Shown here piece after piece: positions 23,754 through 44,472 of a DNA stretch of 64,000 nucleotides; positions within the stretch are counted from its first letter, which is position 1; every line of letters starts with the position of its first letter. The stretch covers positions 1 to 64,000 of the forward strand of contig JAHEZL010000010.1 of the NCBI GenBank assembly GCA_023251095.1. The letters run 5' to 3'. The notes beneath the pieces are model-generated. The model worked only from the letters and a program-made list of their open reading frames with translations. It ran no database searches and had not been told where the DNA came from. The stretch is from Flavobacteriales bacterium. Lineage in GTDB: Bacteria; Bacteroidota; Bacteroidia; Flavobacteriales_C; GCA-002722245. Made by a program: the position numbers and the translations under genes.

Positions 23754-23846
23754 CCAAGCCAACTCCACCACTCTCTCAACACCTACAGAGATAGATTTCA
23801 TAGCACACATCACCCCTCTTAAAGTTTTACCGATTTGTTCAATTGG
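23754..23846 (-). repeat. ilvC 3'-end fragment, copy F (decayed)
   Basis: About 93 bp matching the last third of the ilvC C-terminal region in sense orientation. The reading frame gives GAMG changed to GVMC, six bases are lost near the end, and the stop is changed to TGG. It is the copy farthest from ilvC and the only one with clear coding damage, which fits it being oldest. Followed by a weak version of the ilvC terminator. Confidence 0.88.
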
Positions 23847-24025
23847 TCCTCCCTATTACACTTCTACAAAAAATTGCATTCTCTTTTTATAAACTTAATT
23901 TGAATGAAACTTTAAAGATTAAAAACAGGTATGAGTCAAAATACGTTGGTATATATAATGGAAACAATAATTATTTTTTTTATTAAAACACATCTTTCAT
24001 AACTACACTTCAAATTCACCTTTTT

Positions 24026-25687: not shown

Positions 25688-25728
25688 AAAAGAAAGAACT
25701 GAGATTATTAACTGTTATCACTAAAATA

Positions 25729-25763
25729 GAAAAAGCCCTTGGTTTCCCAAGGGCTCTCTTTTA
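25729..25763. terminator. Hairpin after ilvC-fragment E, probably bidirectional
   Basis: AGCCCTTGG (25734-25742) pairs with CCAAGGGCT (25747-25755), with A-rich left and T-rich right flanks, so it can end both the plus-strand SDGT gene and the minus-strand transcript through copy E. Confidence 0.82.
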
Positions 25764-25780
25764 TTTATCTTCTCAGAATA

Positions 25781-25866
25781 CTAAGCCTCCTCCAACTCTA
25801 CCACTCTCTCAACACCAACAGAGATAGATTTCATAGCTCCCATCGCTCCTCTTAAAGTTTTACCGA
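25781..25866 (-). repeat. ilvC 3'-end fragment, copy E
   Basis: 86 bp encoding in frame [20 protein letters not shown] and then RVVELEEA plus a TAG stop, identical in protein to the ilvC C-terminus but different at several third positions. It begins 8 bp after the stop of the upstream delta-60 protein gene (25875) and is followed by a hairpin terminator. Confidence 0.92.
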
Positions 25867-25874
25867 ATGTTCTA

Positions 25875-28853
25875 TTATTTTTGCATTACTAATGAAAATG
25901 TGCTTTGCAATGAGCTTGAATTTATTTTTACCAAATAAACTCCATTCGATAAACTACTTGTAAAAAGTGGAATTTGATTTTGTCCAGAAATTAAATTTAT
26001 ACTTTCAGACATCACTTTTTGTCCAAGTATATCACAAACTGAAATCTCTACTAAACATGTTTCGGTTACTGATAATTTCAATGTTACATCTCCAGTTGTT
26101 GGATTTGGATAAAGATTGCTAATAGATGGTGAAATTTCGGAAATCTCTATTTTACTAGTATCGCAAACAGACACTGTTAAACTTCCTGTAGCAGAAGCTT
26201 TGCAGCCATTTGCATTAGTTACCTCACAAGTATAGTTACCAGCTTTAATTCCTTTTGAAATTTGAGATACACCTACTCCATTTCCACTCCATAAATAAGT
26301 TTTGAATCCTGATCCAGCATCAAAAATTACAGAATCTCCTTTACAAATTGTTTGATTAGGTATAGTTATAACCGGAAATGGATTTTCAATTGTAATAGAA
26401 GCTGTATCAGCACAACCATTACCATCCAAAACAGTGGCTTCATAAACCTTGGAAGAATTGAAAAGAACGACAGAATCATTAATAACACTGGAATTTACCC
26501 AGTTATATTTATATGGATGTTTTCCAAAAAATGCGATAGCAGTAGCTGATCCAATATTTTGGGAGCAAATAGTATCAACTACATCAGTAAAAGTCAATTG
26601 AAAATTACTGCAAATATTTGGAGAGTCACCTATAATACGGCAAACCTGACTCTTTTTAATACCGTTGTATGAATAAAAATGACCAGCAATAAGGATATTT
26701 CCATCGGGCTGTAATATAACGGGACTCACATCCGCATTTTTTCCACTTCCTTGATTAATAGTAAAAACACTGTCAACGGTTCCATCTGTATTCAAACGAT
26801 TAAAACCTGAACCACCCACTAATATTTTTTGATCCGACTGAACAACAATAGAATAGACAGGGAAATATATTCCAACTGTTCTTGCGGACACGAAAGAATT
26901 ATCAAGTGTTCCGTTTGAATTTAACCGTACAACATACGACTTTTTAATACCATCGTAATACAACACTTTACCGCCTATTAATATCTTATTGTCAGGCTGA
27001 ACAGCGATAGCGTACACCTCCGAATTCCATGCTTCCTTTATAGAAAAGGATTTATCTAAACTTCCATTTGCATTTAATCTTAGTATGATACGATTAAGTC
27101 CGTTGATAACAAACAAACCCCCAATCAAAATTTTACTATCTGACTGCACTACAATTGATCTGACATCGGGGTGGTAATCTGATAGTATTGTGTTAAAAGA
27201 TTCATCTAATTTTCCATCTGATTTTAATCTGGCAATTCCATTTTTAGTAGTTCCATTGTATGAAGTGAAAGTACCTCCAATTAATATTTTTCCATCAGGT
27301 TGTAATGCGAGAGAATGTATTTCAGCTCCACCTGTCCCCGGGTTGAAAGAATAGTCAAGTGTTCCATCGGGATTTAAGCGGGCAATGCCATTTCGCGCAA
27401 CATTATTGTATGATATAAATGCTCCTCCAATTAAAATTTTCCCGTCAGGCTGCACCAGCATGCAATGAATTAAGCCACTGAAAGAGAACTCTGCATCAGT
27501 GTTTGCCCCTTTTGAATTAAATGTATTGTCAATGGTTCCGTCAGAATTTAATCGGATTAAGGATCCTCTACCATAGTTTTTATACATGAATTGCCCCGAG
27601 ATCAAAATCTTCTTATCGGGTTGTAATGCCATTACTTCAATGTAATTATAGGGCCCATAAAGTGAAGGATTAAAAGAACCATCTATACTCCCATTATCAT
27701 TTAAACGGGCAATATACTTTCTATTTGTCCCATTAAAAGAAGTGAAATTTCCACCAATCAAAATTTTTCCGTCTGCTTGCAAAGCAATAGAATAAATAAT
27801 ATCATTCGTTCCATCCATTGGATTAAAAGAAGTATCCAAAGTTCCGTCAGAATTCAATTTTGCTATATGATTTCTTTCCATTCCGGAATAAAAAGTAAAA
27901 TCTCCCCCAATCAATATTTTTCCGACAGAATCTACACATATTGATCTTACGGAATTATTTGCACCGAATCCAGGATTAAAAGTAGTATCAATACTTCCGT
28001 CAGAATTTAATCTTGCAATATGATTTCTATTTATACCATTATAATCAGTGAAATCTCCTCCAATCAAAATTTTACCTATAGAATCAATAACAAGTGATTT
28101 AACCAAATTATTTGCGCCTGTTCCTAGATCAAAAGAAGTGTCTATAGTTCCATCAGAATTCAATCTTGCAATATGATTTCTGCTTATGCCATTATATTCA
28201 GTAAAATCTCCTCCAATCAAAATTTTACCTATAGAATCAATAACGATTGATGTAACTGAATTATTTGCACCTGTTCCCGGATCAAAAGAAGTGTCTATAG
28301 TTCCATCGGGATTTAATCTTGCGATATGATTTCTGACGACACCATCATAACTTGTAAAATCTCCTCCGATTAAAATTTTCTTATCAGACTGAAGGACAAT
28401 GAAATTAATAGAGTTATTAGGCCCCACCCCGCTATTAAACGACGAGTCAAGGTTTCTATTATAATCGAATCGAAGAATATAGTTTTTCTTTGATTTCCCA
28501 TATCCGGTAAAACTTCCACCAACCAAAGTTTTTGTATCAGGCTGAATGGCTAATGTATTTACAGGATTATTGGGGAAATCTGCAAATGGGTGTGTAAAAA
28601 AAGAAGATCCATTCACATTGACTGTAGCAACTCCACCAGAACCTATCCCACTGTAGATATTAAAGCCTCCACCTAACATTATAAGTCCATCTGAACGAAT
28701 AGCAACTGAACTAACGAAGTGATTTGGGCCATCTCCATATTGATAGCCAATATCATTTCTATTAAATGTAGTATCTAAAGCACCTGCTTGCCCATAAACG
28801 AAAACACTATTCAATAACACGAATAATATTACAACACATTTAATTTTAATCAT
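25875..28853 (-). CDS. Large T9SS-secreted delta-60 repeat protein
   Basis: 992 residues from ATG 28853 (signal peptide MIKIKCVVILFVLLNSVFVYG; upstream in-frame starts add no signal). Residues about 30-720 hold more than a dozen delta-60 repeats, each about 50 residues with KILIGGDFTSYNG and ARLNSDGTIDTSF, typical beta-propeller blades. Then come two Ig/PKD-like domains (DGNGCADTA and TNANGCKAS ends) and a C-terminal T9SS sorting domain (LYPNPTTGDV ... GVYLVKI, ending LVMQK). Likely a surface adhesin or matrix protein. Several blades (about 28000-28350) are nearly identical in DNA, suggesting recent blade duplication. Its stop abuts ilvC copy E. Confidence 0.9.
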   Translation of the reverse strand: MIKIKCVVILFVLLNSVFVYGQAGALDTTFNRNDIGYQYGDGPNHFVSSVAIRSDGLIMLGGGFNIYSGIGSGGVATVNVNGSSFFTHPFADFPNNPVNTLAIQPDTKTLVGGSFTGYGKSKKNYILRFDYNRNLDSSFNSGVGPNNSINFIVLQSDKKILIGGDFTSYDGVVRNHIARLNPDGTIDTSFDPGTGANNSVTSIVIDSIGKILIGGDFTEYNGISRNHIARLNSDGTIDTSFDLGTGANNLVKSLVIDSIGKILIGGDFTDYNGINRNHIARLNSDGSIDTTFNPGFGANNSVRSICVDSVGKILIGGDFTFYSGMERNHIAKLNSDGTLDTSFNPMDGTNDIIYSIALQADGKILIGGNFTSFNGTNRKYIARLNDNGSIDGSFNPSLYGPYNYIEVMALQPDKKILISGQFMYKNYGRGSLIRLNSDGTIDNTFNSKGANTDAEFSFSGLIHCMLVQPDGKILIGGAFISYNNVARNGIARLNPDGTLDYSFNPGTGGAEIHSLALQPDGKILIGGTFTSYNGTTKNGIARLKSDGKLDESFNTILSDYHPDVRSIVVQSDSKILIGGLFVINGLNRIILRLNANGSLDKSFSIKEAWNSEVYAIAVQPDNKILIGGKVLYYDGIKKSYVVRLNSNGTLDNSFVSARTVGIYFPVYSIVVQSDQKILVGGSGFNRLNTDGTVDSVFTINQGSGKNADVSPVILQPDGNILIAGHFYSYNGIKKSQVCRIIGDSPNICSNFQLTFTDVVDTICSQNIGSATAIAFFGKHPYKYNWVNSSVINDSVVLFNSSKVYEATVLDGNGCADTASITIENPFPVITIPNQTICKGDSVIFDAGSGFKTYLWSGNGVGVSQISKGIKAGNYTCEVTNANGCKASATGSLTVSVCDTSKIEISEISPSISNLYPNPTTGDVTLKLSVTETCLVEISVCDILGQKVMSESINLISGQNQIPLFTSSLSNGVYLVKINSSSLQSTFSLVMQK

Positions 28854-28933
28854 AAAACTGCTTTGAGAAATCATCCAAAATCTTTTCGAATTTAGGAAAA
28901 TATAGAGAACCATAAAAACTGAAATTAAACATC

Positions 28934-28964
28934 AAAAAAAATCCCCACGATTTCTCGCAGGGAT
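28934..28964 (-). terminator. ilvC-type terminator hairpin, copy D
   Basis: ATCCCCACGA (28941-28950), loop TTTC, TCGCAGGGAT (28955-28964): a 10-bp stem with a GAAA loop in minus-strand RNA and a U-run from the A-tract 28934-28940. Practically identical to the hairpin after resident ilvC. Confidence 0.88.
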
Positions 28965-28991
28965 CTTGTACTTTATTTATCTTCTTAAAGC

Positions 28992-29092
28992 CTACGCCTC
29001 CTCCAACTCCACTACTCTCTCCACTCCTACAGAAATAGATTTCATAGCACCCATCGCTCCTCTTAATGTTTTACCGATTTGTTCAATTGGAT
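28992..29092 (-). repeat. ilvC 3'-end fragment, copy D
   Basis: 101 bp encoding [20 protein letters not shown] and then [12 protein letters not shown] with TAG stop, intact in frame. Terminal Ala codon is GCG rather than GCT. Lies between glpD (stop 29130) and an ilvC-type terminator. Confidence 0.92.
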
Positions 29093-29129
29093 TTAATTGG
29101 TGTCTGTCCCATAGCCGTCCCTCATTTTT

Positions 29130-30692
29130 TTACAGCATATAACATTTCGCAATCGATTGAAAAAGCTCCACTTGCTTTTTAATCCATTCTTCAGATTCAC
29201 CTAATTCCTGCGCCATTACTTTTGCTACGTCAGGAGCAACCTCAACAGCTGCTTTCACATCAAGAAACAACAAACGCGTTCTTCGCGCTAAAACATCTTC
29301 TAGTTGCACCGCCATTTCATTGCGCACGGCCCAAATCACTTCCGCAAAAACATAAGGATATTCCTGATGTATTTTCTCCCCCCATCTTGAATTTTCTTGA
29401 ATCAATTTTTGGATGGATGCAGCGTCCGTTCCATAAACAACTAAATGATTTCTCTGCAAAGATGCTTTTAAGTAACCGTGAATTTTATATTCCGAAGTGG
29501 TACATTTTTTAATAGGCAAGTCGGCTTCCTTGGCAACTAAATCTATTGTTTCTTCTGCCATCTTTCGGTAGGTCGTCCACTTACCGCCGGTGATGGTTAT
29601 TAAACCACTCTCTTCGGTGAACAATTTATGACTCCTCGAAATATCCTTCGTGTTTTTACCTTCTTTAGCAGGTTTTGCTAAAGGACGTAAACCACAAAAC
29701 ACCGATTTTATATCTTCCATCTTCGCTTCCTGCAGCGCATATCGATTGAAATTGTCTAAAATGAATTGTACTTCTTGTTCAGTAGGTTTTGGATCTAAAG
29801 ATTCTTTTTCTACCAAAACATCTGTAGTTCCTACTACTAATTTATCGTGCCATGGTATAGCGAAAAGAACTCTCCCATCGCTTGTTTTAGGAATCATGAG
29901 TGCCTTGGTGCTGGGCAAAAACTTACTATCGAGAACGATATGTGTTCCCTGACTCACCTGAATACTAGAGGCTCTTCCGGGTTGATCCAATTTCAAAATC
30001 TGATCTACAAAAACACCTGTGGCATTCACTACCGCTTTTGCATTCAGCGAATATTCTATATCATTCAACACATCCTTTGCTACTACTCCAGTAATTTTAC
30101 CAGCATCATTTTTACTAAATGATTTTACCTTCATGTAGTTGAGTACTATCGCCCCATTGTCGGCTGCCGATTGCGCTAAATTAATCGCCAATCTGGCGTC
30201 GTCAAATTGTCCGTCGTGATACACTACGCCTTTCACCAACTTTTCTTTTTTGATACCTGGCAAGGTATTTTCTACTTCCTTTACTGAAATAATTTCTGAT
30301 TTTCCTAAGCTCAAGCTTCCCGATAACCAATCGTATAATTTGAGTCCCACAGTATACTTCAATGCCTCTAACCAAGAAAACGTTGGAATTAAAAAAGTTT
30401 GATTATCGCACACATGAGGAGCATTCTTAAGCAACAATCCTCTTTCATGTAAGGCCTCAAATACCAATTTGATATTTCCTTGTGCCAGATACCTCACACC
30501 ACCATGAACCAGCTTAGTACTTCTGCTTGATGTTCCTTTCGCAAAATCACTTTGTTCTAACAACAATGTTTTGTATCCTCTTAACGAAGCATCAAGTGCA
30601 ATTCCCAGTCCGGTGGCTCCTCCTCCAATGACAATGATATCCCAAATTGTAGAAGTGTTTTTTATATATTGCAGACTATCGCGTCGGTTCAT
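29130..30692 (-). CDS. glpD: Aerobic glycerol-3-phosphate dehydrogenase
   Basis: 520 residues. N-terminal FAD site IIVIGGGATGLGIALDA (about 20-36), then ERGLLLKNAPH and TTDVLVEKESLDPKPTEQEV, VFCGLRPLA and ITGGKWTTYRKMAEE, all typical of GlpD. It is a membrane-associated flavoprotein oxidising sn-glycerol-3-phosphate to DHAP and passing electrons to quinone. Divergent from glpT-glpQ with 60 bp between starts. The three glp genes form a complete uptake and use module, and they lie between ilvC copies C and D, so they may have been acquired as cargo or be older residents. Confidence 0.95.
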   Translation of the reverse strand: MNRRDSLQYIKNTSTIWDIIVIGGGATGLGIALDASLRGYKTLLLEQSDFAKGTSSRSTKLVHGGVRYLAQGNIKLVFEALHERGLLLKNAPHVCDNQTFLIPTFSWLEALKYTVGLKLYDWLSGSLSLGKSEIISVKEVENTLPGIKKEKLVKGVVYHDGQFDDARLAINLAQSAADNGAIVLNYMKVKSFSKNDAGKITGVVAKDVLNDIEYSLNAKAVVNATGVFVDQILKLDQPGRASSIQVSQGTHIVLDSKFLPSTKALMIPKTSDGRVLFAIPWHDKLVVGTTDVLVEKESLDPKPTEQEVQFILDNFNRYALQEAKMEDIKSVFCGLRPLAKPAKEGKNTKDISRSHKLFTEESGLITITGGKWTTYRKMAEETIDLVAKEADLPIKKCTTSEYKIHGYLKASLQRNHLVVYGTDAASIQKLIQENSRWGEKIHQEYPYVFAEVIWAVRNEMAVQLEDVLARRTRLLFLDVKAAVEVAPDVAKVMAQELGESEEWIKKQVELFQSIAKCYML

Positions 30693-30752
30693 AGGTATCG
30701 AAATTAACTATAAATCCTTTATGCCGTACACAGAGAAAAAAAGGACTAATAA

Positions 30753-32090
30753 ATGTTTAAATTTTTAAAACCACCAGCACAACGTCCTGCAATTGCCGAT
30801 GATCAAAAAGATGCGGCTTACAAAAAATACCGATGGCAAGTTTTCCTGGGAATATTTATTGGTTACGCTGGTTACTACTTGGTGCGAAAAAACTTCACCA
30901 TGGCCATGCCCGATTTGATTGATGCCGGATATACCAAAGCCCAACTTGGATTCGCCCTATCGGGAGTTTCTATAGCTTACGGAATTAGTAAATTGGTGAT
31001 GGGAATGCTTTCCGATAAAAGCAATGCCAGAATATTTCTTCCCTTGGGTTTAATTTTATCTGGATTGACCATGATATTCATGGGACTCACGCATTGGGCA
31101 ACCTTATCGGTATATTCTATGTTTATTATATTGGCCATCAACGGATGGTTTCAAGGTATGGGTTGGCCCCCCAGTGGCAGAGTAATGGTATACTGGTTTT
31201 CACAGAAAGAACGTGCCAGAAAAATGTCTCTATGGAATGTGGCACACAACGTTGGTGGTGCCTTAGCAGGAAAAGTAGCGATACTTGGAACACTCATTTT
31301 TGGCGCATGGCAAAGTAAATTGTACTTCCCTGGATTCGTCGCTATCGTTATCGCCGTTATTGCCTATTTTTTAATTCGTGATACACCTCAATCGTGCGGA
31401 TTGCCCGACATTGAAACTTACAAAGGTGATCGCGAAGCAAACAACGGCAATGAGAAAAGTGTGCAGAAATATTCTAGTAAGGAAATTTTCATGAAGTACA
31501 TTCTTAAAAATAAAATGCTTTGGTATATCTCCATTATTAATGTGTTTGTTTATCTCGTTAGAAACGGAGTGGTAGATTGGGCACCTACATATTTAAAAGA
31601 AGCTAAAGATTATGATTTGAGCGACCAAGGATGGGCCACCTTCGCTTATGAATTTGCAGGAATACCAGGAACTTTGTTGTGCGGCTACCTCTCCGATAAA
31701 TACTTCAAGGGCAATCGTTCTTTGGCTACCATTATCTTCATGTTGTTTGTTACAATTGCCGTTTTGGTGTACTGGCTAAATCCAAAAGGAAATTTTATGG
31801 TGGATCAAATTGCACTCATCGCCATCGGATTTTTTATCTATGGTCCGGTAATGTTAATTGGTGTTTTTGCACTTGACTTGGTGCCACGTGATGCTGCTGG
31901 TACTGCTGCCGGATTCACCGGATTTTTTGGTTATTTAGGTGGTGCCGCCTTCGCCAATATCGGCTTTGGATATGTGGTAGATAAATGGCAATGGGATGGC
32001 GGTTTTATTGTCATTATTGCCGCTTGTATTCTTGCTATTTTAATTTCATTGCTTACTTACCGACACGAAAAAAAACACAGTAGTTTATGA
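30753..32090 (+). CDS. glpT: Glycerol-3-phosphate transporter, MFS/OPA family
   Basis: 445 residues with about twelve transmembrane helices. Family marks: YAGYYLVRKNFTMAMPDL in the first helix region, SDKSNAR after helix 3, WFQGMGWPPSGRVMVYWFS, and RNGVVDWAPTYL in the second half. The OPA family exchanges organophosphates for phosphate; the glpD and glpQ neighbours point to glycerol-3-phosphate. Its stop overlaps the glpQ start by 4 bp. Confidence 0.9.
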   Translation: MFKFLKPPAQRPAIADDQKDAAYKKYRWQVFLGIFIGYAGYYLVRKNFTMAMPDLIDAGYTKAQLGFALSGVSIAYGISKLVMGMLSDKSNARIFLPLGLILSGLTMIFMGLTHWATLSVYSMFIILAINGWFQGMGWPPSGRVMVYWFSQKERARKMSLWNVAHNVGGALAGKVAILGTLIFGAWQSKLYFPGFVAIVIAVIAYFLIRDTPQSCGLPDIETYKGDREANNGNEKSVQKYSSKEIFMKYILKNKMLWYISIINVFVYLVRNGVVDWAPTYLKEAKDYDLSDQGWATFAYEFAGIPGTLLCGYLSDKYFKGNRSLATIIFMLFVTIAVLVYWLNPKGNFMVDQIALIAIGFFIYGPVMLIGVFALDLVPRDAAGTAAGFTGFFGYLGGAAFANIGFGYVVDKWQWDGGFIVIIAACILAILISLLTYRHEKKHSSL

Positions 32091-33181
32091 AGCTATTAGT
32101 CATTTCATTGATTTTTCTTTGGACTTGTTCGAACAACAATTACATGGTTAATTCTCTTTCAGTATCGCAAGAGCAGCTGCTCACTCAAATACCTCAACAT
32201 ATCGTAATTGCTCACCGCGGAACTACTTTTTTCGCTCCCGAAGAAACAGAAACCGCCATGATATGGGCGAGAAATACAGGTGCTCATTATTTGGAATTCG
32301 ACATTCAAAGAACCAAAGACTTTTATTTGGTAGCGCTGCATGATGACAATCTTATTCGCACCAGCAATGTTGAAGAGGTTTTTCCTCACAAAAAAAATCT
32401 TCCTGTTTCAGAATTTACTTATGCTGAATTATTACAACTCAATTTCGGAAAATGGTTTAATGAACTTTACCCACAGCGTCGAGATAGCGTTTTCGAATGG
32501 CAAGATATTCTTACGTTAGAAGACATTGTTCAAATAGCCGAAGGCAAATGCATTGCAAGAGATTCAAACAAAATAAAAATGGTGCGCAGCAATGAAAAAG
32601 GAACAATTGAAACCATCTATAAAACAGATGTTAGTGATCAAAAACACCGTCCGGGCCTTTATATCGAAACAAAAAAACCAGAGTTATTTCCTGGTATTGA
32701 AAAAGATTTGAAAAAAGAATTGATTCGTTTAAAATGGTACGAACACTACAAAAATATTGAAGTTTATAAAGACAAAATTGGAATAGCGAATTCTCCGCAA
32801 AGAATAATTCTTCAAACATTCTCTAAAAAAAGTTTAACCCTCTTGCATCAAGAATTTGGCGACCATATGCCTATTTGTTTTTTGCTTTGGAGAGGAAATG
32901 AATCTACCGACGATTTGCCCGATGATCAACCTGAAACTTTTTTAAAGTGGGTTAATTTTGCGATCGATAATGGCGCAACGATTATTGGTCCGAGTATTGG
33001 CGGCGCACCAAATAATTACCCCAATTTGTTAACTACCGAAAATTTAAAGATTCTCAAAAAAAGTAAATTACTCGTTCATCCATACTCCTTCGATACACCG
33101 GAACAGTTAAACAAATACGGCAAAGAAATTCAAGGTATATTTAGCAATAAAGCCAATGAAGCGCTTAACTTTTTTAAATAA
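32087..33181 (+). CDS. glpQ: Glycerophosphodiester phosphodiesterase
   Basis: 364 residues; N-terminus MKLLVISLIFLWTCSNN with a lipobox-like LWTC (Cys14). GDPD-fold motifs: IAHRGTTFFAPEET (catalytic His), LEFDIQRTKD, VALHDDNL. The Gly of the usual HRG..PENT motif region is kept but Pro-Glu-Asn is altered to Pro-Glu-Glu. It hydrolyses glycerophosphodiesters to glycerol-3-phosphate, feeding GlpT and GlpD. Cotranscribed with glpT (ATGA overlap). Confidence 0.9.
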   Translation: MKLLVISLIFLWTCSNNNYMVNSLSVSQEQLLTQIPQHIVIAHRGTTFFAPEETETAMIWARNTGAHYLEFDIQRTKDFYLVALHDDNLIRTSNVEEVFPHKKNLPVSEFTYAELLQLNFGKWFNELYPQRRDSVFEWQDILTLEDIVQIAEGKCIARDSNKIKMVRSNEKGTIETIYKTDVSDQKHRPGLYIETKKPELFPGIEKDLKKELIRLKWYEHYKNIEVYKDKIGIANSPQRIILQTFSKKSLTLLHQEFGDHMPICFLLWRGNESTDDLPDDQPETFLKWVNFAIDNGATIIGPSIGGAPNNYPNLLTTENLKILKKSKLLVHPYSFDTPEQLNKYGKEIQGIFSNKANEALNFFK

Positions 33182-33214
33182 AATCCCTACTCTAAGAGTT
33201 ACTTATTGAGACAA

Positions 33215-33664
33215 TTATCTTCCTTTTTTTGGAAGTCCTAATAGATATATTTTTTTACCCCTTCCTTTTAAAACTCCTTTTTTCCAAATATAATTTTCGC
33301 TTTTCAGATCTTTGGTAAGTTCATCTAAATCTTTTAAGGTATAGGTTCGAACATTAGATACGGCGCCATCCCAGGCAAAGTAGAAAGGGAGGACAGGAAT
33401 AAAATAAGTAAATACAATTTGCTTCCAGGAAAGTGGTTTTACAAAAGGAGTGATAAAAAACGTCATTAAAAAATTCAAAGGCAATGCAATCCACCACAGT
33501 ATATTTGGCAAACTATTGTCGCTGATTTCATAAATACAAATGGGTTGTTGACTACTTTGAGCATCTTGCAAAATCTTTTTAGCAGTTTCAGAATTCATGT
33601 GATGAAAACTGCAGATTGAAACCAGCAACAAGAGGCGGGCAGCCAACAATTGATCGGCTATCAT
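33215..33664 (-). pseudogene. Truncated C-terminal part of a methyltransferase-like membrane protein
   Basis: About 149 residues from ATG 33664. It contains FHHMNSETAKKILQDAQ, a two-helix membrane segment (about 58-95) and AWDGAVSNVRTYTLKDLDEL. These resemble the C-terminal half of a Bacteroidota family that normally carries an N-terminal SAM-binding Rossmann domain. No such N-terminal domain is found upstream: the next 670 bp are non-coding. I infer a 5'-truncated remnant; a genuine short protein remains possible since the frame is intact. Confidence 0.55.
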
Positions 33665-33670
33665 TTCCAA

Positions 33671-34336
33671 TTTCCTTTTACCTTAACTAGTAAAGATCAC
33701 CTCCCTACACCCACCAAAGCCCTTCAATCTCATTAGTTCCCTTTCCAGCGGTATCAATTATCCGGAAACCACTTCTCCCACCAGTAAATCCAATCATTTA
33801 CATTTCTAAAAGAAATAAACAAGAAAGTTTTATCACTGAAAACAGCAAGTAATATTTAACCCCATCGCCTTTCACGATAGTGGTTTATGCTGTATTTCTT
33901 TTGAGGATTTTCTTTGAGATGGTTTTCCACACTTCTGCTTCATCAAAAAAACCACTGAAAGTAAAATCCTTCCTTTTTACGTCTTTGTACTTCTAGCAGG
34001 ATCACTGGATTCCACATTTTACGGGAAATTTCAACGCCACTTATAAACTTTATATGACACCTCTGTTTTACTTCTGAAATGAAGTGAAATCTACTTGTGT
34101 TTTACGTATCGATCCGCTTATAAATCTAGCGGTGGATAAGGATTCCCGTGTTCAATGATTCTTCACTTATAGATTTAACTTTTATATCTACCAATGTTTT
34201 TAAATGTGCAGGATTGGTGGTTGTAAATGGGAATCTATTTGTCTTTATCGATTCTTACCAAAAACCACATTGAAAGATTTGAATCCACTTGATTAGTATA
34301 TTTTTGTTTACTCAACTCTTTGCTTTTTGCCAGACA
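33671..34336. other. Gene-free degenerate stretch
   Basis: About 666 bp without a credible gene on either strand: frames are short and stop-rich, and no RNA gene, hairpin terminator or ilvC fragment is seen. It contains a 42-bp repeat shared with 40150-40191. Probably decayed coding DNA at a cassette junction. Confidence 0.6.
34193..34234 (+). repeat. 42-bp repeat, copy 1
   Basis: Identical to 40150-40191 apart from two mismatches. Translates in one plus frame to NVFKCAGLVVVNGN; the other copy gives NVFKWAGMVVVNGN. It lies in gene-free DNA. Confidence 0.75.
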
Positions 34337-34648
34337 TTAATTTGGAATAGTCCAGTTTTCGGGACCCGCATCAGTTTTAGTACTGTCTTTCATCTCCTCA
34401 GAAACAGCTTCCTCTTCAATTTTAACACTGTCTTTACGCTCTACTTTATCCGATTGAGGCACTCCATACCCGCCATTCCCCGTAGCAGCGCCAGTACCTT
34501 CTCCACTTGCCTCTCCATCTCCACTTGCTCCATCGTCACTTCCGCTTCCTTCCGGTAGCATAAAGGCTATTAAAAAAACTATTGCAAACAGGATAATGAC
34601 AGATTTGGCAGCGTTATCCAATATCCAGTTTTTTATTTTTTCAATCAT
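34337..34648 (-). CDS. Small single-pass membrane protein with disordered tail
   Basis: 103 residues: a short cytosolic start, one transmembrane helix (about 16-32, SVIILFAIVFLIAFMLP), then a Gly/Ser/Asp/Glu-rich low-complexity segment (33-65) and a charged tail ending ENWTIPN. No known domain. It starts 33 bp after the S41 peptidase stop on the same strand and is probably cotranscribed. The composition is biased but the frame is uninterrupted. Confidence 0.6.
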   Translation of the reverse strand: MIEKIKNWILDNAAKSVIILFAIVFLIAFMLPEGSGSDDGASGDGEASGEGTGAATGNGGYGVPQSDKVERKDSVKIEEEAVSEEMKDSTKTDAGPENWTIPN

Positions 34649-34681
34649 AAATTTCTTTTAAGTTTAAATAGGAAGAATGCT

Positions 34682-35974
34682 TCAAAGAGGCCATACCTTC
34701 ACAACACTTCCATTATCATATTCAACAATTATTTTTGAAATTTCACCATTAGAATCTTCCATTCTTATTCTCGCAAAAGGCAACTCCTTAATTTGAAAAC
34801 AATTATTTTTAATTGGAATGAGATGAAACAAATCATTACCCTTTTTATATTGAAGAACACCGGAATCTATGAAGAAACTTCGTCCATCAAAATTCCCTAT
34901 GAATTTTTTTAAATAGTTACTGTCATAACTAAAAGGATGAATTTCTGCATTGATGCTGGAAAGAGCCCAATTGAATTTGAATGTATCCATTGAATCTTTT
35001 GAACTTTTACATAGATTTTCCAACGCTGTTTTGTATGCTACATTTAATGCCGATTCACTACTACAGTTAATATGGGGGAATACACCAATGCCTTCCCAAT
35101 TCGACTTTGTAATTGGGTTTATTGCTTTGGCAAAAGGGATCGTCATATTAAAACCATTTCCTAAATAAACATTTCTAATGGGATGAGCTCCACCACCTGT
35201 AGTGTCGCCAATAATTGTAGCTCTTTTCAAATTTTTAAGATTATAGCAAAATTCTTCGCCGGCAGAAAAAGTTGATTGGCTTGTTAAAATATAAATCGGA
35301 ACATCTATCTTCTTTCCGGGAACACAGGGATCTGTCCAAAATTCTTCTGTATCGTCATCTATTCGGTAGTAAATATCATTGAGATGCACTTTCTCTTCTC
35401 CAAAAAAATAACTTGAAATATATTTCACCATTTCAGGATCACCTCCAAGGTTGTCTCTTAAATCAATAATCAATGCATTGGTATTTTCAACAGCAGAAAT
35501 AGCAGATGTAGCGGCATTTTCTCCTAATCCCAACTCACTGAATTCATTCAATTTAATATACCCAACATTTCCACTTAAGATTTCAATTTTTTGAAAACCA
35601 TAATTTGCCCATTTCATTCTTTTTTGCTCCTCATCATTAATTTGATTGAATGATAGCAGACTAGTGTTTGTTGTTGTTTTTGGATCAGTGTACCAAAATG
35701 AAAAATGATAATCACCACTTAATTTTCTCAACTCATCATGCATTTGCATAGCAAAAGCTTCTTCATCATGAAAATCCTTATATTTTCCAGAATGATTATT
35801 CGATATCAATTGATTACAAATTGAATCTACTCTTTCAGGATTTATGTAGTATTCATTAAGTTTTTCCCTAATCGCTTCTATTACTTCAGCATTTGAATTA
35901 AATGATTTATTAGATGTGGAATTATCTGCGCATGATACAAATAGCGCATAACATACAAACAACAAATACTTCAT
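34682..35974 (-). CDS. S41-family (tail-specific-like) peptidase lipoprotein
   Basis: 430 residues. N-terminal lipoprotein signal with lipobox FVSC (Cys15). N-terminal helical domain (30-90), then an S41 core: GYIKLNEFSELG, LIIDLRDNLGGDP, and TSQSTFSAGEEF with nucleophile Ser237, followed by IGDTTGGGAHP. No PDZ domain is evident, as in the tricorn-core/IRBP-like branch. The C-terminal domain (330-430) is beta-rich. Envelope-located serine peptidase of unknown substrate. Upstream lies ilvC copy C with its terminator. Confidence 0.87.
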   Translation of the reverse strand: MKYLLFVCYALFVSCADNSTSNKSFNSNAEVIEAIREKLNEYYINPERVDSICNQLISNNHSGKYKDFHDEEAFAMQMHDELRKLSGDYHFSFWYTDPKTTTNTSLLSFNQINDEEQKRMKWANYGFQKIEILSGNVGYIKLNEFSELGLGENAATSAISAVENTNALIIDLRDNLGGDPEMVKYISSYFFGEEKVHLNDIYYRIDDDTEEFWTDPCVPGKKIDVPIYILTSQSTFSAGEEFCYNLKNLKRATIIGDTTGGGAHPIRNVYLGNGFNMTIPFAKAINPITKSNWEGIGVFPHINCSSESALNVAYKTALENLCKSSKDSMDTFKFNWALSSINAEIHPFSYDSNYLKKFIGNFDGRSFFIDSGVLQYKKGNDLFHLIPIKNNCFQIKELPFARIRMEDSNGEISKIIVEYDNGSVVKVWPL

Positions 35975-36019
35975 GTGAGGGTTTTTACTAGTAATTAAAG
36001 ATTTCCAACCCCACTAAAA

Positions 36020-36049
36020 TAAAAAATCCCCACGATTTCTCGTAGGGAT
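36020..36049 (-). terminator. ilvC-type terminator hairpin, copy C
   Basis: ATCCCCACGA (36026-36035), TTTC, TCGTAGGGAT (36040-36049), A-tract 36020-36026. One base differs from the resident ilvC hairpin (C to T, which keeps pairing as G-U/A-U variation). Confidence 0.86.
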
Positions 36050-36071
36050 CTTATCTTATTTACGTAGAAAA

Positions 36072-36127
36072 CTAAGCCTCCTCCAACTCCACCACTCTCT
36101 CAACACCAACAGAGATAGATTTCATAG
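36072..36127 (-). repeat. ilvC 3'-end fragment, copy C (shortest)
   Basis: 56 bp encoding [17 protein letters not shown] and TAG in frame. It starts 5 bp after the stop codon of the upstream delta-60/DUF7619 protein (36133) and is followed by the ilvC-type hairpin. Confidence 0.9.
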
Positions 36128-36132
36128 GATGG

Positions 36133-38637
36133 TTATCTCTGTATTACTAATGAAGTTGAACTTTGCAATGAACTTGAATTTACTAGTACAAAATAAACTC
36201 CATTTGACAATCCACTTGTAGAAAGAGGAATTTGATTTTCTCCATTTACCAAACTCACATTTTTAGTCAAAAATTTCTCTCCTAATAAATTATAAACACT
36301 AATTGCAACCAATGTATTTTGTGAGACTACAATATTTAGTATAGCATTATCAGATGTAGGATTAGGGTATAAAGAACTGATGTGCTGCGTGGCATTTGTA
36401 ATAAAATTATTTGATGGTTTACATGGCTGATGATTATCCCCGGTATAAATAGTATTTTGAACAACATTAGTAAGTACTGCTGGATTATAATCGAAGAAAA
36501 TTTCGGCTTTGTTTGAAATTATTGTACCATTTGAAACGGAGGATTTCACTTTGATTTCATAAATAACGTACCCATGGCTTTTAGGTTCATTACTATTGCT
36601 GTCGGCCAACCAAATATCAGTAAACACAAATTTTATGGCATTGTTTTTTAGTATTACAGTATGCATTGTATCACTTGCACTTATAATACGAAGAGTGTTT
36701 AAGTCAAGATTTATGTCCAACGAATCGACCACATTAATATTAATTGCTTCAGCATTTCCTGTGTTCTGGAAACGAACAGTATAAGTTAAAAGTTGATCTT
36801 TTTTTACATAAGCTTCTTCACATTCTCCACTCGGATTAACCGAAATATCATTTGGATCGTAACTATTTCTTACCAATGAATAAGATGTTTGACTATTGTT
36901 TGTGCTATCCACATCTAACACCAAAGGCGTAACAAAACTTTGCATTAAAATAGTATCGTTCATTTGACTTTGCGTAGAAACGGTAAGATTAACATCTACC
37001 TTAAAATCTTTAATTTGATGTTGTAAATCTGTGAAATTCCAAATTAGTGTATCACCATGAATGAAATCAGGCACAACAGAAGCGCTATCAAAAGTTAAAG
37101 AATCGGGGATTATAAATTTAAGTTGCCCACTTTTCGTAGCACAACCGTTATTATAAGCAAGTAGTCGTGTAGTTGAATTAACGCCTGGGCGAAAAGTCTC
37201 CATTATAATTTCTGTAGATAAATCAAAATCACTTTGAATTTGAGGCTCGGATATCAAAACTTCAACAGAATCTTTGCATCCCAATCCGTCAGTAACAATA
37301 CATTTGTACGTTTTGGCGGTATCAAATTCAGCAATTGAATCAGTGTAGGAGAATGCGTTTTTCCACTCATACGAATATGGTTGCACACCATTATATCCGA
37401 TAGCACTTGCACTACCGTTTGCTGTACACGATACATTATAAACATTCGTCACTCCTACCCTAACATTACAGGCAGAGCTATCCGTAACAATAAGTCTGGC
37501 AACATGAAAATTTCCAATGTAAGTGCGAAAACTACCAGAAATCACGATTTTATTGTCGGCTTGAATACTAATTCCTGAAACCATAGACTGAGAATACAAT
37601 GCTTTATTAAGTACCATATTATAAAATGAATTGTTTAAGCTTCCGTCGGCATTTAACGCTATTAAACCGCTACAGTCAACATTATTATAACTAGTAATAA
37701 AGCCTCCAACTAAAATCTTATCATCACTTGTAACTTTAACATCGTAAAGATTGACTCCAACATAACCGTTTACACCTCCATTAAATGTTTCATCTAAGGA
37801 TCCATCGGGATTCAATCTAGCAATTCCTTTGATTACTTTATCATTGTACTTTTCAAATTCGCCAACTATGATGATTTTACCGTCACTCTGTATATCCATC
37901 GCATGTGCATGCATATCATTTCCTACTTTCCCATAATTAAAAGTTGTATCTCTGCTGCCATCTGAGTGCAACCTTATCATACGTGGTTGCAAAGAATCCG
38001 CCACATAACTATAAGCAGCGCTCACAAGTATTTTTCCGTCGGAAAGGTATTTCATTGCTAGAACCGATCCACTGTTCATTGCATAAGTGAAAGAAGGATC
38101 TATAGCACCATTATTATCTATTCTTATTAATCGCTTTACTGCAACTCCATTATATTCTGTAAAAGTGCCTTCTAACAAGATCTTGCCATCTGGTTGTAAA
38201 AGTAACTTTTCAGAATAGCCGTTTGGACCGCTGTTACCAAAATTAAAGCTTTCGTCTATACTACCATCACTGTTAATTCTGATGATGTTTTTAATTGCAG
38301 TACCATCGTACACGGTATCTGTAGTAGTTAAAATAATTTTCCCATCGGCTAACAAAACAAAATCATCCATTCGACCCTTCACTATAAATTTATTGGCAAA
38401 GGAAGTGTCGATGGAACCGTCTTCATGTAGTCTTGTTAGAACTTCTCTTACCACTCCATCATATGAACCAACTTGACCCTTTAATAAAATTTTTCCATCA
38501 GGTTGAATGATTGTCTTATGACTTGATTTAGCTGGACCGATACCCCGGTTAAAAGTTGTATCAACCACAAAAATTTGAGAGAATGTTTTCAAATTTAAAG
38601 ATGCACAAAGTAGAATAAGTAGTAGGTGTTTCTTCAT
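36133..38637 (-). CDS. T9SS-secreted delta-60 repeat protein with DUF7619-like domain
   Basis: 834 residues from ATG 38637 (signal MKKHLLLILLCASLNLKTFS). Residues about 25-375 carry seven to eight delta-60 blades (KILLEGTFTEYNGVA, ARLNPDGSLDETF), then one SprB-like/PKD repeat (SYEWKNAFSYTDS ... DGLGCKDSVEVLI), a DUF11/DUF7619-like beta domain (about 590-735; YDPNDISVNPSGE, LTYTVRFQNTGNAEA, EIFFDYNPAV), and a C-terminal T9SS sorting domain ending LVIQR. It is a paralogue of the protein at 25875-28853, with closely similar tails. Its stop codon lies almost on ilvC copy C. Confidence 0.9.
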   Translation of the reverse strand: MKKHLLLILLCASLNLKTFSQIFVVDTTFNRGIGPAKSSHKTIIQPDGKILLKGQVGSYDGVVREVLTRLHEDGSIDTSFANKFIVKGRMDDFVLLADGKIILTTTDTVYDGTAIKNIIRINSDGSIDESFNFGNSGPNGYSEKLLLQPDGKILLEGTFTEYNGVAVKRLIRIDNNGAIDPSFTYAMNSGSVLAMKYLSDGKILVSAAYSYVADSLQPRMIRLHSDGSRDTTFNYGKVGNDMHAHAMDIQSDGKIIIVGEFEKYNDKVIKGIARLNPDGSLDETFNGGVNGYVGVNLYDVKVTSDDKILVGGFITSYNNVDCSGLIALNADGSLNNSFYNMVLNKALYSQSMVSGISIQADNKIVISGSFRTYIGNFHVARLIVTDSSACNVRVGVTNVYNVSCTANGSASAIGYNGVQPYSYEWKNAFSYTDSIAEFDTAKTYKCIVTDGLGCKDSVEVLISEPQIQSDFDLSTEIIMETFRPGVNSTTRLLAYNNGCATKSGQLKFIIPDSLTFDSASVVPDFIHGDTLIWNFTDLQHQIKDFKVDVNLTVSTQSQMNDTILMQSFVTPLVLDVDSTNNSQTSYSLVRNSYDPNDISVNPSGECEEAYVKKDQLLTYTVRFQNTGNAEAININVVDSLDINLDLNTLRIISASDTMHTVILKNNAIKFVFTDIWLADSNSNEPKSHGYVIYEIKVKSSVSNGTIISNKAEIFFDYNPAVLTNVVQNTIYTGDNHQPCKPSNNFITNATQHISSLYPNPTSDNAILNIVVSQNTLVAISVYNLLGEKFLTKNVSLVNGENQIPLSTSGLSNGVYFVLVNSSSLQSSTSLVIQR

Positions 38638-38762
38638 AACAGCGGATTTTTGTTTCAACACTAAGTATACCCATTTTTTCAACTTTTGTTACAGAAGCAT
38701 TAATCGAGCATTTCTTTGACCATATGTTATTTTCTGGTTTCATATAGCACTCATTATTAATT

Positions 38763-38794
38763 AAAAAAGACTACCCATTTCTGAGTAGTCTTTT
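38763..38794 (-). terminator. Terminator hairpin after ilvC-fragment B
   Basis: AAAAGACTAC (38765-38774) pairs with GTAGTCTTTT (38785-38794). The stem sequence differs from the other ilvC-type hairpins although its position relative to the fragment stop is the same. Confidence 0.82.
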
Positions 38795-38814
38795 CTCTTT
38801 ATCTTCTCAGAATA

Positions 38815-38916
38815 CTAAGCCTCTTCCAACTCCACCACTCTCTCAACACCAACAGAGATAGATTTCATAGCACCCATCGCTCCTCTTAAAGTTTTACCGA
38901 TTTGTTCAATCGGATG
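38815..38916 (-). repeat. ilvC 3'-end fragment, copy B
   Basis: 102 bp encoding [20 protein letters not shown] and [13 protein letters not shown] with TAG, identical to the resident ilvC C-terminus at protein level, with synonymous changes. The flank ATCTTCTCAGAATA before the stop is shared with copy E. It lies 49 bp beyond the fic stop. Confidence 0.92.
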
Positions 38917-38965
38917 GTTTCTTAAAGAAAACCTTTGGCTCATCCTTTCAGACAAATCTAATTTT

Positions 38966-40066
38966 TCAAACTATATTCAACTTGTATGAAGTACTTCGTC
39001 CGCCCGATTCATTCTTCACTAAAACATTTTTCTCCAACAACACATTAATATCTCTGGTAGCTGTCATGCGCGTGCATTTCGCAATACGCGACCATTTAGA
39101 GGAAGTAATATTGCCTTCAAAGCCTTCCAGTAATTTGCGAATGATTTTTAACTGGCGCTCATTAAAATTATCTTGAGAATATTTCAACCAAAATTGTCTT
39201 TTGAAATCAACTTTTTGAATCACCTCATCGGATGCCTCCATAGCTTTAACCACAATATTTAAAAACCAAAGTATCCATTCAGTAACATCTAAACTTCCCT
39301 TACTGGCTTTGTTCAGCTGACTATAATATTCTTTCCTATTTTTCAATACCGAATTGGAAAAACTGTAAAATCGTAAGGCTGAAGAATCTGCCTCACACAA
39401 AAGCATATCCACCAAAGCCCTTCCAACCCTTCGATTTCCATCTTCAAAAGGATGTATCACTTCAAACCACAAATGAGCTATTGCTGCCTTAATGAAAGGA
39501 TGATGATTTTGTTTTGTATTGAAATAAGAAAAAAAATCTTTCATCATTTTCGACACATTGGCAGAGCCGGGAGCCTCGTAATGCACCGCTTCTCTTCCCA
39601 TTGCACCCGAAACTATCTGCATGGCTTCCTTTGAAGTTCGCCACTTTGCCACTTCTATCTTCCTTCCCGCCGAACGCCCTGTTGGAAATAAACCCGCATG
39701 CCAATCAAAAACACGCGATGCCGACAAAGGCTTGTTGTACCGCTGTGTTGCATCCAAAAATAAATTTACTGCACCCTCCGATTCTTCCGATTTATTCAAG
39801 TCTTTGTCTTCTATCTCTATCCCTAATTTTCTGGCAATTGACGACCTCACCTGCGATTCCAATAATTTTTCGCCTTCAATTTCACTATTTTTTAAAACAT
39901 CTAAAACCCCGGTTTCCAAAGCAGTTCTCTCCTTTGAATCAAAGCCCAATGCCGCAAGCTTCCCCAACAGATATCCCTGCTTAGATATAAGCTGAAAAAG
40001 CACAGAATTCACCGCGCTTTCATCCCACTTCCACTTCGGCCAGTCTTTTCTTTGATAGATGTACAT
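38966..40066 (-). CDS. Fic/DUF4172-family AMPylase-like protein with winged helix
   Basis: 366 residues from ATG 40066 (a GTG five codons upstream is possible). Order: N-terminal DUF4172-like Fic_N region (about 1-95) with the inhibitory-helix-like NSEIEGE; Fic core with HPFEDGNRRVGR (His205), in which the usual second Gly of HxFxxGNGR is Arg; C-terminal winged helix (about 300-366; SRIAKCTRMTATRDINVL). Fic enzymes transfer AMP or other nucleotides to protein side chains; this subgroup is often self-inhibited and DNA-binding. Its start codon sits inside a repeat array that may be its own operator. Confidence 0.9.
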   Translation of the reverse strand: MYIYQRKDWPKWKWDESAVNSVLFQLISKQGYLLGKLAALGFDSKERTALETGVLDVLKNSEIEGEKLLESQVRSSIARKLGIEIEDKDLNKSEESEGAVNLFLDATQRYNKPLSASRVFDWHAGLFPTGRSAGRKIEVAKWRTSKEAMQIVSGAMGREAVHYEAPGSANVSKMMKDFFSYFNTKQNHHPFIKAAIAHLWFEVIHPFEDGNRRVGRALVDMLLCEADSSALRFYSFSNSVLKNRKEYYSQLNKASKGSLDVTEWILWFLNIVVKAMEASDEVIQKVDFKRQFWLKYSQDNFNERQLKIIRKLLEGFEGNITSSKWSRIAKCTRMTATRDINVLLEKNVLVKNESGGRSTSYKLNIV

Positions 40067-40126
40067 GTTACAAATATACACTTATTTGTAACATTATTTG
40101 TTACGAATAGGATTTTATTTGTAACA
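40066..40126 (-). promoter_or_regulatory. Repeat operator overlapping the fic start
   Basis: TGTTACAAATA (40066-40076) is the exact inverted repeat of TATTTGTAACA (40083-40093); two more direct copies follow, TTATTTGTTAC (40094-40104) and TTATTTGTAACA (40115-40126). The palindrome includes the first base of the fic ATG. Inference: binding site for the winged helix of the Fic protein, giving autoregulation. Confidence 0.6.
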
Positions 40127-40149
40127 AGGGGAATATATTGATACCTATG

Positions 40150-40191
40150 AATGTTTTTAAATGGGCAGGAATGGTGGTTGTAAATGGGAAT
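40150..40191 (+). repeat. 42-bp repeat, copy 2
   Basis: Two mismatches against 34193-34234. It sits between the fic promoter region and the stop of the small membrane protein gene. Confidence 0.75.
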
Positions 40192-40202
40192 ACAGAGGAA
40201 AT

Positions 40203-40595
40203 TTATTTCTTATAAAAAGTCATTTTTTCACAGCCCTTAGCATTCATCCAATGTTCTTTCTCATCAATAATAAAATCACAATCAAGAAAAAGTTGCTTAT
40301 TATACTCTTGATTAAACTTTAATGTACCTCCATTTATTTCATAAGTCCCCCATACATATTCAATACTGAAAAGAACTCCGGTAAAACTCAAAAAAGTAGA
40401 GTCTTTATACAATTTCACTTCTGTAGTACACATACCATCATTCTCTTGACAAACTGCAAAAACTTCTTTGTTTTCGAATTTCCTGATATGATATCCTTCA
40501 TATTGGTAAACTGAAGCAAACCAAAGAATAGCAGCGACAATAATCAATCCAATAGCAAGGAATGTCCATTTCAATATTTTTAAAAACCTTTTCAT
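40203..40595 (-). CDS. Small membrane-anchored protein, unknown
   Basis: 130 residues: basic N-terminus (MKRFLKILKW), one transmembrane helix (about 10-30), then a beta-rich extracytoplasmic domain with four Cys (in AVCQENDGMCTTE, LFLDCDF and AKGCEKM) that could form two disulfides. Resembles lipocalin-like or META-type small envelope proteins in length but no family is assigned. It lies between the ilvC-type terminator of copy A and the fic gene. Confidence 0.65.
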   Translation of the reverse strand: MKRFLKILKWTFLAIGLIIVAAILWFASVYQYEGYHIRKFENKEVFAVCQENDGMCTTEVKLYKDSTFLSFTGVLFSIEYVWGTYEINGGTLKFNQEYNKQLFLDCDFIIDEKEHWMNAKGCEKMTFYKK

Positions 40596-40610
40596 CCAGC
40601 CAAATATAAC

Positions 40611-40643
40611 AAAACAAAAATCCCCACGATTTCTCGCAGGGAT
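40611..40643 (-). terminator. ilvC-type terminator hairpin, copy A
   Basis: ATCCCCACGA (40620-40629), TTTC, TCGCAGGGAT (40634-40643), A-tract 40611-40620. The stem is identical to that after resident ilvC. Confidence 0.88.
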
Positions 40644-40666
40644 CTTTAATTCAATTTATCAAAAGA

Positions 40667-40844
40667 CTAAGCCTCCTCCAACTCCACTACTCTCTCAACT
40701 CCTACAGAGATAGATTTCATAGCACCCATCGCTCCTCTTAATGTTTTACCAATTTTCTCGACTGGGTGAGATCTCAATGCTTCGTTCACACGAACCAATT
40801 CCAAATTATCAACTCCATTTCCTTTTCCGGCACCATATGTTTTA
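40667..40844 (-). repeat. ilvC 3'-end fragment, copy A (longest)
   Basis: 178 bp encoding 58 residues in frame, from [13 protein letters not shown] through to VVELEEA and a TAG stop. Against resident ilvC it changes Ile-Glu-Gln to Val-Glu-Lys (HPVEKIG) and otherwise differs at synonymous positions. It begins about 6 bp after the serine hydrolase stop (40850) and is the copy nearest ilvC. Confidence 0.94.
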
Positions 40845-44287: not shown

Positions 44288-44320
44288 TAAAAAAAAATCC
44301 CCACGATTTCTCGCAGGGAT
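44288..44320 (-). terminator. Terminator of the ilv operon/lasso-like ORF
   Basis: ATCCCCACGA (44297-44306), TTTC, TCGCAGGGAT (44311-44320), A-tract 44288-44297. It closes the ilvBNAC transcript after the lasso-like ORF; the same hairpin recurs after ilvC fragments A, C and D. Confidence 0.88.
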
Positions 44321-44343
44321 TCTTACACTATAAGCTTTTAACA

Positions 44344-44472
44344 CTAAGATGCATGATAATCACCGTCTTCGCTATATGAAACAGCTGGTCCGCCTTCTGT
44401 TTCCTTAATTGGTTCTACCTCAAATATAGGCTTCACCCAACTCTTCTTTTCTTTAATCTCTTGTGTTTTCAT
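44344..44472 (-). CDS. Lasso-peptide-like RiPP precursor (orphan)
   Basis: 42 residues, ATG 44472 to TAG 44344. A charged leader with KKSWVKPIFEVEPIKETE resembles the lasso leader consensus (Tyr-x2-Pro-x-Leu and a Thr at position -2). The putative core begins GGPAVSYSEDGDYHAS: Gly at position 1, Glu at position 9, the spacing used for a nine-residue macrolactam ring. It resembles the paeninodin-type lasso family. It sits 24 bp after the ilvC stop and before the ilvC terminator, so it is likely on the ilv transcript. No B (protease/RRE) or C (asparagine synthetase-like) enzyme is in the window. Confidence 0.65.
   Translation of the reverse strand: MKTQEIKEKKSWVKPIFEVEPIKETEGGPAVSYSEDGDYHAS

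Follow-up and report, generated by a model that had tools for sequence, protein, structure and literature searches.

The short ORF between ilvC and its terminator in the window (the whole 64,000-nucleotide stretch of DNA analyzed) is a lasso peptide precursor, as judged by homology and by all sequence features tested. The window genome (G000) is not a lasso biosynthetic system, because the maturation enzymes were sought and not found. The likely explanation is that the ORF encodes a genuine paeninodin-like precursor, of a family used by the genus, which is stranded in a genome without maturation enzymes. A genome that lacks the lasso enzymes can carry a lasso precursor on a core biosynthetic operon, and cluster-based mining would miss a precursor parked in this way. 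Among the papers searched, none joined a lasso peptide with an orphan precursor.

The precursor and its homologues

The first-pass annotation described a 42-codon ORF with a Trp-x2-Pro motif, Thr at -2, a Gly-Gly start and Glu at core position 9, and every one of these features is present (Table 1). The leader motif WVKPIF spans aa 12 to 17, and its W12 and P15 are invariant in 17 aligned sequences; the general form of the motif has been defined previously (PMC13381572). T25 occupies position -2 before E26|G27, where Thr is found in at least 90% of the alignment and is a general rule for lasso leaders (PMC10368454). The core starts with Gly-Gly, G27 being core 1 and E35 core 9, and the Glu column is kept in at least 70% of the relatives. 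The last residue is S42, which was missed in the earlier annotation. Most relatives end in S or T, and a C-terminal Ser is the kinase target in paeninodin-like lasso peptides (PMC8498205). In the alignment, the precursors of the relatives share KKxWxxP and the Thr at -2. Their cores carry an acidic residue around position 8 or 9; most begin Gly-rich and most end in Ser or Thr.

Table 1. Features of the ilvC region, with positions in the window
Feature	Position	Strand	Basis or remark
Precursor ORF, 42 aa, ATG to TAG, MKTQEIKEKKSWVKPIFEVEPIKETEGGPAVSYSEDGDYHAS	44344..44472	(-)	ORF list and profile search
Predicted leader, aa 1-26, MKTQEIKEKKSWVKPIFEVEPIKETE, T25 at -2	44395..44472	(-)	Alignment of 16 relatives; predicted cleavage point
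WVKPIF, RRE-binding motif [Y/W]xxPx[L/V/I/F/A]	44422..44439	(-)	Alignment; motif definition PMC13381572
Predicted core, GGPAVSYSEDGDYHAS, with Glu at position 9 and Ser at the C-terminus	44347..44394	(-)	Alignment; predicted ring and phosphorylation site
Intrinsic terminator common to ilvC and precursor	44293..44324	(-)	Predicted stem and T-run
ilvC, 503 aa	44497..46008	(-)	Last 66 nt and TAA stop unlike those of every relative and every intact displaced copy, which end in TAG
Displaced ilvC 3' end, 177 nt; with downstream DNA, matches current ilvC end of G001	40668..40844	(-)	blastn
Displaced ilvC 3' end	38816..38927	(-)	blastn
Displaced ilvC 3' end	36073..36127	(-)	blastn
Displaced ilvC 3' end	28993..29092	(-)	blastn
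Displaced ilvC 3' end that, together with its terminator, matches the ilvC end now in G003	25782..25876	(-)	blastn
Displaced ilvC 3' end, stop codon lost	23759..23846	(-)	blastn

The ORF is short, Pfam and NCBIfam scans gave no match to it, and no curated family covers the peptide, all of which would suit an ORF that looks like a lasso precursor only by chance. That explanation is already contradicted by the profile searches, and we give it practically no credence. A profile made from 18 relatives of the same genus (sources including G001, G003 and G004, where G001 to G004 are the four other species), with the window sequence left out, gave the ORF 41.0 bits and an E value of 1.1e-11 in a search of 1,724 ORFs, where the runner-up had an E value of 2.4. 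When the peptide was shuffled 5,000 times, the best score against the profile was 11.9 bits, and none of the shuffled peptides (0/5,000) came close to the real score. The search for similar precursors that had been proposed earlier recovered homologues in genomes of the same genus, and the claim of a lasso-type precursor is borne out by homology to precursors in a real lasso cluster of three sister species. The window precursor itself is known from a single sequence.

In the enzyme-bearing species, B1, the RRE protein, would dock onto the WxxP leader, B2 would cleave behind Glu26, with Thr at -2, and the cyclase would join the amino group of Gly1 to the side chain of Glu9, giving a nine-residue ring. 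An HprK-like kinase would then phosphorylate the C-terminal Ser. By calculation, the dehydrated core would have a monoisotopic mass of approximately 1592.64 Da, rising to approximately 1672.60 Da with one phosphate. In the window genome, the precursor ATG lies 24 nt past the ilvC stop, co-directional with ilvC and ahead of a strong terminator (14 pairs and a T-run, fold z = -3.8), which is the sole terminator-like site near the precursor. Transcription of the ilv operon probably extends through the precursor, whose translation, if it occurs, would yield an unprocessed 42-residue peptide. The earlier prediction that its expression follows branched-chain amino acid supply is plausible given this putative co-transcription. 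An Rfam search found no leader RNA.

Lasso clusters of the sister species and the empty site in the window genome

Homologous precursors occur in and around a lasso cluster in three of the four other species (G001, G003 and G004), and the cluster comprises genes for B1, B2, cyclase, kinase, nucleotidyltransferase and sulfotransferase. In G003 (contig C82, JAPLEZ010000153.1, a Lac Pavin MAG), five precursors are located inside or beside the cluster, whose B2 scored 81.9 bits against NF033537 (cut-off 33). This cluster further encodes a nucleotidyltransferase, an HprK-like kinase, a sulfotransferase, two methyltransferases, a JmjC protein and an ABC transporter. The cluster of G001 (contig C1) is similar, and that of G004 is in pieces on short contigs. 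The best model for the RRE proteins of the relatives was NF033536 (Bacillus lasso PqqD), at 74-79 bits versus a cut-off of 80 (74 in G003). Their cyclases are Asn-synthase-like, without the MCGI start and its N-terminal Cys. The loci in G003 (L029, C82:30001-50000) and G001 (L031, C1) each hold several precursors and unusual tailoring genes, including PRMT-like and JmjC genes. A second cyclase-like protein is encoded elsewhere in G003 (L036:7175-12036, contig C83), with a precursor behind it, an adjoining formyltransferase-like gene and neighbors that may resemble phage tail-collar proteins.

Paeninodin-like lasso peptides of Bacillota have WxxP leaders, an HPr-kinase homologue, nucleotidyltransferase and sulfotransferase genes and a C-terminal Ser (PMC8498205, PMC13381572). 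The window precursor resembles them in its WxxP leader, Thr at -2, Gly start, acidic ring-position residue and C-terminal Ser, and the sister species do so in having the kinase, nucleotidyltransferase, sulfotransferase, B2 and cyclase, with a Bacillus-type RRE as the best model. In contrast to those systems, the window precursor is a solitary gene behind ilvC in a genome that has none of the enzymes, the precursors of the sister species are multiplied and scattered, their cluster has extra PRMT-like and JmjC genes, and the phylum is Bacteroidota.

The earlier suggestion that the enzymes may be elsewhere in the genome did not hold, as the genome has neither B2 nor a lasso-type B1 nor a cyclase and the cluster site is intact and empty. 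For B2, the best PF13471 score in the window genome was 11.3 bits (cut-off 26) and NF033537 gave no match, while G001, G003 and G004 were positive. No lasso-type B1/RRE protein was found in this genome; its lone PqqD (33 bits) scored 19.4 against NF033536, versus 74-79 in the relatives. No lasso cyclase was found either, all five of its Asn synthases being canonical, with an MCGI start that provides Cys2. The NF033535 model alone does not discriminate (208-279 bits for these Asn synthases, 252-268 for true cyclases). True cyclases are distinguished by the missing MCGI start and a far lower TIGR01536 score (202-206 bits for the cyclases of the relatives, 442-494 for the Asn synthases of the window genome). 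The two tests set in the first-pass annotation, lasso enzymes in the genome and a conserved Gly/Glu spacing in homologues, therefore came out differently: the machinery is absent from the genome, but the core Gly start and acidic residue are largely conserved.

Two candidates for the missing enzymes were rejected. The transglutaminase gene at 21630-22727 is an ordinary Transglut_core gene (63.8 bits), and it was not taken for B2 because sister genomes whose true B2 is another gene also contain weak PF13471 matches of this kind. The PqqD on contig C32 was not accepted as the missing B1, given its poor fit to the model of the relatives and its own operon with an ATP-grasp protein and a PLP decarboxylase. 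In this operon (L037:9859-12586), the decarboxylase is diaminopimelate-decarboxylase-like and has the N-terminus KKLQYERPVI, which contains a YxxP motif; the PqqD-like protein may have an enzyme, and not a peptide precursor, as its binding partner. The window peptide might have acquired a different role, such as being bound by this PqqD-like protein or acting unmodified. That PqqD is still encoded, beside an ATP-grasp protein and a decarboxylase starting with a YERP motif, would agree with such a role. However, the protein fits the lasso RRE model poorly and has an apparent partner of its own, and nothing connects it to the ilvC-precursor locus, making this role very improbable.

In G003, the genes for agmatine deiminase and an EPS Asn synthase flank approximately 14 kb of cluster. 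Their counterparts in the window genome (88% and 78-85% identical to those of G003, respectively) are neighbors on one contig, approximately 60 nt apart, indicating that the absence of the cluster there is not an assembly gap. Identities of agmatine deiminase to that of the window genome were 88% in G003, 83% in G004, 78% in G002 and 74% in G001, which places G003 and G004 closer to the window genome than the other two. Since the cluster is present in G001, G003 and G004, its loss in the window genome and G002 would be the simpler reading, based on one gene in five species.

The window genome is rated 100% complete, which is an estimate, and consists of 43 contigs with gaps between them; an accessory replicon could be absent from the assembly. 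The main rival to a stranded or recently delivered gene is a precursor that functions in trans, with its enzymes in other strains or on a replicon missing from the assembly, as the cluster of the sister species probably serves many scattered precursors. The leader, core and C-terminal Ser are intact, the sister species hold scattered precursors far from the cluster, and the cluster is patchy within the genus and so may be patchy within the species. A decaying relic would also not have to keep its motif and core fully intact, and their state counts against a stranded relic. Yet the cluster of the relatives is chromosomal, adjoining agmatine deiminase or asnS, the site is intact and empty in the window genome, and no trace of B1, B2 or cyclase was found in the assembly. 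Function in trans is considered rather unlikely.

The number of precursors followed the presence of the machinery, with six in G001, seven in G003 and nine in G004, all with the machinery, versus none in G002 and one in the window genome. Among 395 genomes of the class, the precursor profile (E <= 0.001) was found in 6, lasso B2 in 16 and both in 5, and the sole precursor-carrying genome without B2 was the window genome. Only two of the genomes, G080 and G203, are independent in this count, as G001, G003 and G004 fed the profile. The precursors of G080 and G203 lie approximately 2 kb and 18 kb from B2, respectively. The G080 precursor adjoins kinase-like and sulfotransferase-like genes, named by their resemblance to the L029 proteins of G003. 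The neighborhood of this locus (L134), with its kinase- and sulfotransferase-like genes, is like that of the second cyclase-like protein of G003 (L036). One record, CAMBXP010000001.1, bears the title Chryseobacterium gleum but was placed in one genus with Bacteroidetes and Flavobacteriales MAGs; the title may be wrong.

Displaced ilvC ends and the probable arrival of the precursor by exchange

A blastn search with the last 200 nt of ilvC recovered exactly six further copies (55-177 nt, 87.5-93% identity), which lie on the minus strand within positions 23759-40844. These six are real, and each is followed within approximately 15-30 nt by a terminator stem with no ORF between, which agrees with the earlier claim that the precursor is missing at these ends and that the terminator comes right after the stop. 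The last 66 nt of the current ilvC were 82-88% identical to the ends in other species, versus 89-94% among those, and its stop is TAA, whereas all other intact ends have TAG. The unit at 40490-40844 matched the ilvC end of G001 and its downstream DNA, and positions 25719-25864 matched the ilvC end of G003 with its terminator. Because these displaced ends correspond to current ends in other species, the stack looks like the product of serial insertion of ilvC ends together with downstream DNA.

The precursor is located on the newest layer of this stack, in accordance with the claim that it belongs to the most recent exchange. An exchange at the 3' end of ilvC, where insertions recur, probably brought the precursor in; the precursor may also, or instead, have outlived the loss of the cluster. 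Site-specific integration and homology-anchored transformation may be candidate routes of insertion. No recombinase was recognized among ten hot-spot genes scanned.

Of the eight junctions, five map to positions 100-114 within the terminal 200 nt of ilvC, a possible crossover site. The stack (window positions 23759-44560) is interleaved with variable genes, including Fic, beta-lactamase family, sigma factor and beta-propeller genes. Displaced ilvC ends were also present in G002 and G003. The gap between ilvA and ilvC is likewise variable, with an ORF of 120 aa in the window genome (46095-46457). In G004 (L116:1978-2112, contig C105), it contains a glycosyltransferase-like gene as well as a lasso precursor.

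Dispersed precursors in the genus

Many precursors of the relatives are distant from the cluster, often as the last cistron behind unrelated genes, and the window gene is one case of this genus-wide habit. Among 15 places measured, 7 have a precursor that begins 24-48 nt past the stop of an unrelated co-directional gene. The host genes of these seven are ilvC (G000), ilvA (G004), asnS (G001), agmatine deiminase (G003) and three others. One of the seven, on contig C42 of G001, has an internal stop. One G004 precursor (L115) adjoins the far end of the ilvC hot spot.

Dispersed RiPP precursors that share one enzyme set are the prochlorosin-type arrangement of marine cyanobacteria, where the chemistry is that of lanthipeptides. 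The precursors of G001, G003 and G004 are similar in being many, with a shared leader and varied cores, and in lying in many cases away from the enzymes. They differ in having lasso rather than lanthipeptide chemistry and a putative action in trans, and the enzyme set is absent in the window genome. With six to nine precursors per enzyme-bearing sister species, many of them far from the only cluster, a prochlorosin-like dispersed arrangement is suggested for lasso peptides. This pattern is a more interesting lead than the window gene itself. We tentatively propose that one synthetase may serve dispersed last-cistron precursors (with ilvC, ilvA, asnS and agmatine deiminase as hosts), which would place each lasso peptide under a different physiological signal. 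The precursors would spread between species alone, via insertion sites at gene ends, into genomes with or without the synthetase.

In two places, G004 (L113:6321-7311, contig C6) and G001 (L035:7540-8469, contig C73), a scattered precursor is immediately followed by its own HprK-like kinase gene, and in G001 the kinase ORF is broken.
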